From: Desulfobacteraceae bacterium
Lineage (GTDB): Bacteria; Desulfobacterota; Desulfobacteria; Desulfobacterales; JALSRD01
DNA: 38,396 nt
Assembly: GCA_027061725.1 (NCBI GenBank)
Contig: JAMOVG010000233.1
Span: 1 to 38,396 of the forward strand
Reading direction: 5' to 3'
Part shown: piece after piece, positions 2,354-3,148 of the stretch
Layout: each line of letters begins with the position of its first letter
Numbering within the stretch: position 1 is the first letter of the stretch
Program-made: the position numbers and the translations under genes
The notes under the pieces: model-generated
What the model was told of the DNA's origin: nothing
Databases searched by the model: none
Seen by the model: only the letters and a program-made list of their open reading frames with translations

Positions 2354-3148
2354 ATGACCGTTATATCACTACCGAAACCTGTCTGCCCCGTACGCCGGCA
2401 GCAGCGTCCCATAAGCCGGCGTCGTTTTCTGCTGAAGGTGGCTGCCGGCTTGGCGCTGCCCTTTTTCGGGCGCTCCCCGGCTCTGGGGGCCGGCCGGGCG
2501 GCCCTGCCGGCCGTCGATCGGGCCGCGCCGTCGGTCACCGAGACCGCCACCTTCGCCATGGGCTGATTCTGGGGATCCGAATCCCGGTTCGGGATCATCG
2601 AAGGCGTTGTTCGTACCCGCGTAGGGTACACCGGCGGCAAGCGGAAGGACCCCACCTACCATCACCTGGGCGACCACACCGAGAGCGTGCAGTTGGACTT
2701 CGACCCGTCGCGGGTCTCCTACGGCCGGTTGCTGGATGTTTTCTGGCGCAGCCACAACCCCTTCGCCCGCGTGCGGTCGCGCCAGTACATGGCGGCGGTA
2801 TTCTGCCACGGCCCGGACCAACTGGCCCAGGCGCGGGCTTCACGGAGGCGGCAGGGCGCCGCCAGCGGGCGAAAGGTGACCACCGCCGTCCTGCCTGCCG
2901 CTGCGTTTTACCTGGCCGAGGACTATCACCAGAAATACCACCTCCGGCAGCACGCTTTCGCGTTGCGCGAGTTCCAGCGCATGTACCCGCGGACGCGTGA
3001 CCTGATTGACTCCACGGCCGCCACGCGCGTCAACGCGTACCTGGGCGGAGAGGGGGATCTGGAAAGGCTGAAACGGGAGATCGGCGGCTTCGGGCTCTCG
3101 TCCTCGGCGGCCGCCACACTGCTCGATATCGTCGTGCGCAGGAGCTGA
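2354..3148 (+). CDS. msrA: Tat-exported selenocysteine-containing peptide methionine sulfoxide reductase MsrA
   Basis: Reduces methionine-S-sulfoxide in proteins. The reading frame is continuous only if the TGA at 2564-2566 is read as selenocysteine (residue 71): before it stands TFAMG and after it FWGSE, so the family's GCFWG catalytic motif becomes G-Sec-FWG. Downstream MsrA hallmarks are VGYTGG, PTYHHLGDHTESV, FDPSRVSYGRLLDVFW and AEDYHQKYH. The N-terminus has a Tat signal: SRRRFLL at residues 21-27, a hydrophobic stretch and a likely cleavage after ALGA near residue 46, so the enzyme should act in the periplasm. The start at 2354 follows GAGAGG with short spacing; an in-frame ATG at 2309 is an alternative. 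The only Cys in the mature part is in VFCHG, and no C-terminal resolving Cys is seen. The final stop is also TGA. Reading this as two broken pieces is less likely because all motifs are intact. Confidence 0.85.
2574..2596 (+). promoter_or_regulatory. Candidate bacterial SECIS hairpin
   Basis: Seven bases after the in-frame UGA, GATCCGAA (2574-2581) pairs with TTCGGGATC (2588-2596), leaving one bulged G and the six-base loop TCCCGG. Bacterial SECIS elements are hairpins directly downstream of the Sec codon with a G in the apical loop for SelB. Position and shape fit; SelB binding is inferred. Confidence 0.65.

Follow-up and report, generated by a model that had tools for sequence, protein, structure and literature searches.

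The window, the whole stretch of Desulfobacteraceae DNA that was analysed (38,396 nucleotides), carries on its forward strand a gene for methionine sulfoxide reductase A (MsrA), an enzyme of protein repair, at positions 2354–3148 (264 residues, stop TGA 3146–3148), in which codon 71, a TGA at 2564–2566, is predicted to specify selenocysteine (Sec). This TGA is the only one in an otherwise open frame and falls on the Cys position of the GCFWG motif (GUFWG with Sec), the catalytic codon at which the original prediction had placed it. The MsrA pattern had also been described as intact on either side, and the Pfam PMSR match (PF01625, 2543–2950, residues 64–199, E-value 1.2e-38) indeed runs across the TGA with the conserved active-site residues in place. 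The window protein scored 133 bits against PF01625 (curated cut-off 23.7) and 122 bits against TIGR00401 (cut-off 108). Judged from its intact active-site residues, it would reduce methionine-S-sulfoxide.

The catalytic domain is preceded by a predicted Tat-type signal peptide (2354–2488) and followed by a helical domain (2951–3145), as in the MsrA of Clostridium oremlandii, and a predicted bacterial SECIS hairpin lies at 2581–2595, all on the forward strand. Upstream of ATG 2354, the Shine-Dalgarno (SD) region AAAGAGAGG (2338–2353) is predicted to form an anti-SD duplex of −8.7 kcal/mol, the strongest among all in-frame starts. UGA was proposed to serve the same gene as its real stop, and we read TGA 3146–3148 as the true terminator because the same-genus homologue ends with TAG at the aligned place and several other genes in the window, themselves supported by Pfam, use TGA as an ordinary stop. 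A second Sec at this final TGA was rejected on the same grounds.

The Sec-MsrA gene stands alone between trkA-like and bioY-like genes, both on the opposite strand. In the same-genus genome, bioY-, biotin-ligase- and Mur-ligase-like frames, matched by eye, follow its copy in the same order. No redox partner adjoins the gene among the annotated genes of the window, which make up part of its frames. Elsewhere in the genome there is a second MsrA (C100), of the Cys type, with a long frame and no internal stop.

Conservation of the in-frame TGA and selection downstream of it

A scan of GTDB contigs yielded 80 MsrA loci. TGA was present at the Sec codon in five of them, all with the same architecture as the window gene and labeled in the tree as Nitrospirota, Chloroflexota and, in three cases, Myxococcota; the other loci had TGC or TGT at the catalytic codon, as far as read. 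In the whole genomes of the relatives set, all 9 full-length subfamily members, the window included, carried the in-frame TGA. The subfamily with an in-frame TGA was also detected in 28 of 395 genomes of a phylum sample and in 50 of 389 genomes of a class sample. The three genome sets overlap, and the total amounts to about 76 distinct genomes plus the five contigs, or ∼80 others besides the window. The codon was read directly in 62 genes, namely the 40 in the alignment, of which the window gene is one, and another 22. All 62 had TGA at the same place, hence 61 relatives did; the remaining genomes are counted by their number of in-frame TGAs. The catalytic position of the homologues held Cys or TGA, never Trp.

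In the sampled phylum, this MsrA subfamily was seen only with TGA, bar one truncated match. The latter, from a genome of the same order (G026, C25:39881-40369), is a subfamily MsrA without the N-terminal Sec-bearing part and without a stop, and is truncated or frameshifted. A second TGA was observed in L167 (genome G414), where codon 73 replaces the Trp of GUFW (TGA-TTC-TGA, codons 71 and 73); this may be an error, the result of mutation or another recoded codon. No relatives were found on viral contigs; among plasmid sequences, all MsrA matches were below 60% identity and none covered 80% of the query.

Downstream of the TGA, the comparison of the window gene with its same-genus counterpart gave a dN of 0.27 and a dS of 1.19, and each of the six pairs compared had a dN well under its dS. 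These values indicate that the region after the TGA is under purifying selection. Since the TGA is shared by many genomes and dN is far below dS downstream of it, sequencing error and decay are excluded for the family. The original prediction would have been undermined by a sequencing error at 2564–2566, which is excluded by the recurrence of this TGA across many independent genomes, or by homologues that all stop here with no conservation beyond, which is not what the substitution rates reveal.

A putative SECIS hairpin

The predicted hairpin pairs 2581–2586 with 2590–2595 around a GUU loop, which becomes GGUUC if the top pair opens, so that its core reads CCC-GGUUC-GGG. The bacterial SECIS model calls for a G in the first two loop positions, a loop of 3–9 nt, a stem of 4–16 bp, a distance of 16–37 nt from the UGA and an energy of −7.5 kcal/mol or lower (PMC13188914). 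With its GUU or GGUUC loop, 5–6 bp and 19–20 nt from the UGA, the window hairpin has the geometry of this model.

The 40 Sec genes align without gaps from the TGA, and their codons 6–9 after it read [T/G]CC-C[G/A]G-TTY-GGG almost without exception. In contrast, the Cys members of the same subfamily have varied codons and other residues at codons 6–9 and lack the hairpin; the GGG codon was present in 39 of 40 Sec genes vs. 3 of 14 Cys genes. Over the seven pairs of the hairpin, 87.9% of the cells in the 40 Sec genes were paired, and changes on both sides were observed in 23 cells, across three pairs. The covariation score was 0.254, compared with 0.092 in shuffles and at most 0.081 when the hairpin was slid along the alignment. 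None of 500 shuffles came as high as the real hairpin; since relatedness among sequences can by itself lift them above such shuffles, the slid control and the contrast with the Cys genes weigh more.

Of 22 fresh genes, 20 retain five or more of the seven pairs. The two exceptions (L188 and L196) have GACUCC-AGGUUC-GGAGUC, a perfect stem with GG still in the loop, which we read as a register shift resembling a natural compensatory redesign.

It is comparison among genes, rather than the fold of a single sequence, that speaks for the hairpin. When 2560–2605 was folded alone, a competing hairpin won and the energy was no better than that of shuffles (z +0.47). With the first nine bases from the UGA masked, the conserved hairpin became the minimum-energy fold (−9.6 kcal/mol). 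Its energy is borderline against the model limit of −7.5 kcal/mol, at −7.3 kcal/mol alone and −8.3 to −9.6 kcal/mol with flanks and the upstream bases masked, and another fold won when the upstream bases were free. Across 62 genes, the hairpin was the minimum-energy fold in 43 after masking. No Rfam family matched the window at the gathering threshold, a result that is no evidence against the hairpin. A hairpin with a G in its loop is present at SECIS distance, as originally proposed. In the Sec genes, synonymous sites and compensatory changes preserve the hairpin at 2581–2595, whereas the Cys homologues do not have it; we therefore regard it as a very probable bacterial SECIS element.

Selenocysteine machinery and probable decoding of the UGA

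Of the selA, selB, selC and selD genes on which the original prediction depends, all but selB were recovered. The genome of the window has a tRNA-Sec (76.1 bits, over the cut-off; anticodon TCA by ARAGORN), selA (E-value 1e-186) and selD (E-value 1e-108). The selD gene (C184:7005-7922) contains an in-frame TGA inside its active-site motif, CG-U-AAK, and its product is probably itself a selenoprotein. With the wing-domain family and the same-genus SelB as queries, selB was not found in the assembly (410 contigs, 97.6% completeness), and the matches obtained look like ordinary translation GTPases. Among 10 other genomes tested, selB was over the cut-off in 8, the same-genus genome included; it was split over two adjacent frames in G038 and present only as a fragment in G033. 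In the 8 other Sec-MsrA genomes tested, selB was over the cut-off in 7, and the eighth is G038, with its two adjacent pieces. The neighbor of the same-genus selB has only a weak match in the assembly, by which an assembly gap is neither proved nor excluded; such a gap is the probable cause of the missing selB.

Three other explanations were weighed. The species may have lost selB recently, in which case translation would now stop at the UGA and the gene would be a very young pseudogene. The missing selB and the weak match of its same-genus neighbor are what such a loss would leave, but the assembly is fragmented and short of complete, the tRNA-Sec, selA and the Sec-containing selD are intact, and selB accompanies Sec-MsrA in the other genomes tested, so that we consider this very unlikely. 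A gene broken by a plain nonsense mutation or a sequencing error in a Cys-MsrA could also be expected to coexist with an assembly without selB, and the Cys-type MsrA elsewhere in the genome (C100) could make the copy with the Sec codon dispensable; this explanation is extremely unlikely in view of the same TGA codon in many independent genomes of several phyla, the purifying selection 3′ of it and a hairpin conserved at synonymous and covarying sites. A code in which TGA specifies Trp or another ordinary residue would open the frame, but its probability is negligible, given that TGA terminates several other genes of the window, that homologues have Cys and never Trp at the site, with nearby Trp codons being TGG, and that the tRNA-Sec, SelA and SelD are present.

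The open frame, the position of the TGA, the conserved hairpin, the selection downstream, the machinery apart from selB and the similarity of fold described below all support Sec in place of the catalytic Cys, as originally proposed. We hold it to be very likely that the product is a methionine-S-sulfoxide reductase with a catalytic Sec, predicted to be exported, and that the UGA at 2564–2566 would be decoded through SelB recruited by the hairpin. SelA and SelD would make the Sec-tRNA that decodes this UGA, SelB bound at 2581–2595 would deliver it, and the later UGA at 3146 would end translation. Once folded, the protein would leave by the Tat pathway for the cell envelope; there, its selenol is expected to attack Met-S-sulfoxide, releasing Met and forming a selenenic acid.

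Relation to known MsrA enzymes and predicted export

The closest solved structures by sequence are those of the C. oremlandii OhILAs Sec-MsrA (PDB 4lwj, 4lwk, 4lwl, 4lwm and 4u66; E-value 3e-50, about 1e-50), with other MsrAs at 1e-29 or weaker. The mature portion of the window protein, as modeled by AlphaFold (pLDDT 96.8), aligned with C. oremlandii MsrA at a TM score of 0.87 over 203 columns, with 39–40% identity in the structural alignment, compared with a TM score of about 0.6 for other MsrAs, a gap that is due to the extra helical domain. The two proteins share the catalytic Sec, the MsrA domain and the distinct C-terminal helical domain. Canonical Cys MsrAs (E. coli 1ff3 and others) have the catalytic domain and active-site residues in common with the window protein, but carry Cys in place of Sec, have resolving Cys residues and lack the helical domain. 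A quick tree, in which many forks are weakly supported, sets the subfamily apart from this canonical clade and places C. oremlandii MsrA with the Sec sequences.

Sec-MsrA, with GUFWG/H, has already been described as a selenoprotein of bacteria (PMC13188914). Its restriction to some algae and bacteria, as originally stated, is a fair description, although a Sec-MsrA of Syntrophobacter fumaroxidans was listed in 2006 (PMC1794560). Because that protein, likened here by its listing alone, is also a deltaproteobacterial Sec-MsrA, the window gene adds one more member to an already known type; export is not mentioned in the text of that paper. New here, beyond the known enzyme type, are a predicted signal for export and an RNA signal that is conserved very well. 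The clade is well supported and widespread; its SECIS consensus is crisp and it has Cys relatives to compare it with, which makes it useful for testing what is gained by Sec.

In C. oremlandii MsrA, Sec is residue 16 of 209, which leaves no space for a signal peptide. Unlike it, the window protein has a 70-residue N-terminus in which the twin-arginine motif SRRRFLLK is followed by a hydrophobic stretch; export is suggested by these motifs and by homologues with Tat or lipobox signals. By simple pattern tests on the 40 Sec genes, a hydrophobic N-terminal segment was detected in 38, a twin-arginine-like motif in 13 and a lipobox-like motif in 16, compared with a hydrophobic segment in 5 of 14 Cys members of the subfamily; the tests are rough, and the true start of some frames may lie further downstream than assumed.

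An in-frame ATG with a strong SD was found 20–44 codons upstream of the Sec codon in 24 of the 40 genes and, by the same rules, in 14 of the 22 fresh genes. In the fresh genes, a strong SD preceded 15 of 31 ATGs at this distance, compared with 12 of 70 Met codons located downstream (p 0.003 by Fisher's test, which is optimistic for related genes). In L153, L155, L156, L095, L097, L160 and others, the internal SD-ATG lies ∼33 codons before Sec, just past the signal-like segment, and L009, L010, L162, L169, L199 and L202 are alike. The window gene itself has no internal SD-ATG; it has a TTG at 2450 with a good SD (−7.3), whose use as a start is doubtful. Because signal-like N-termini and internal SD-ATG starts occur together in relatives, the data suggest that those with an internal start make exported and cytosolic forms. 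We tentatively propose that the subfamily serves in cell-envelope repair in its phylum, as a Tat substrate or lipoprotein, and that many relatives make both an exported and a cytosolic selenoenzyme, the latter from a second start with its own SD after the signal. The export signal, together with the double starts in relatives, is the freshest lead.

C. oremlandii MsrA natively contains Sec and has a 20-fold higher activity than the Cys form; it has no resolving Cys, and glutaredoxin reduces it whereas thioredoxin does not (PMC4479559). The window protein appears likewise to lack a conserved resolving Cys: Cys 151, its only Cys outside the signal, is not conserved and is Tyr or Phe in most relatives. 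An external thiol partner would therefore be needed to regenerate the enzyme. Should the export signals and the double starts prove real, they raise the question of how recycling works, outside the cytoplasm, for a selenoenzyme that has no resolving Cys.

Some Sec-MsrA relatives (L009, L154, L160, L164, L165, L167, L093 and L162) end in a short C-terminal tail with a Cys, often as CP, that is absent from the window protein and its same-genus relative. This tail Cys is a possible resolving Cys in those proteins.
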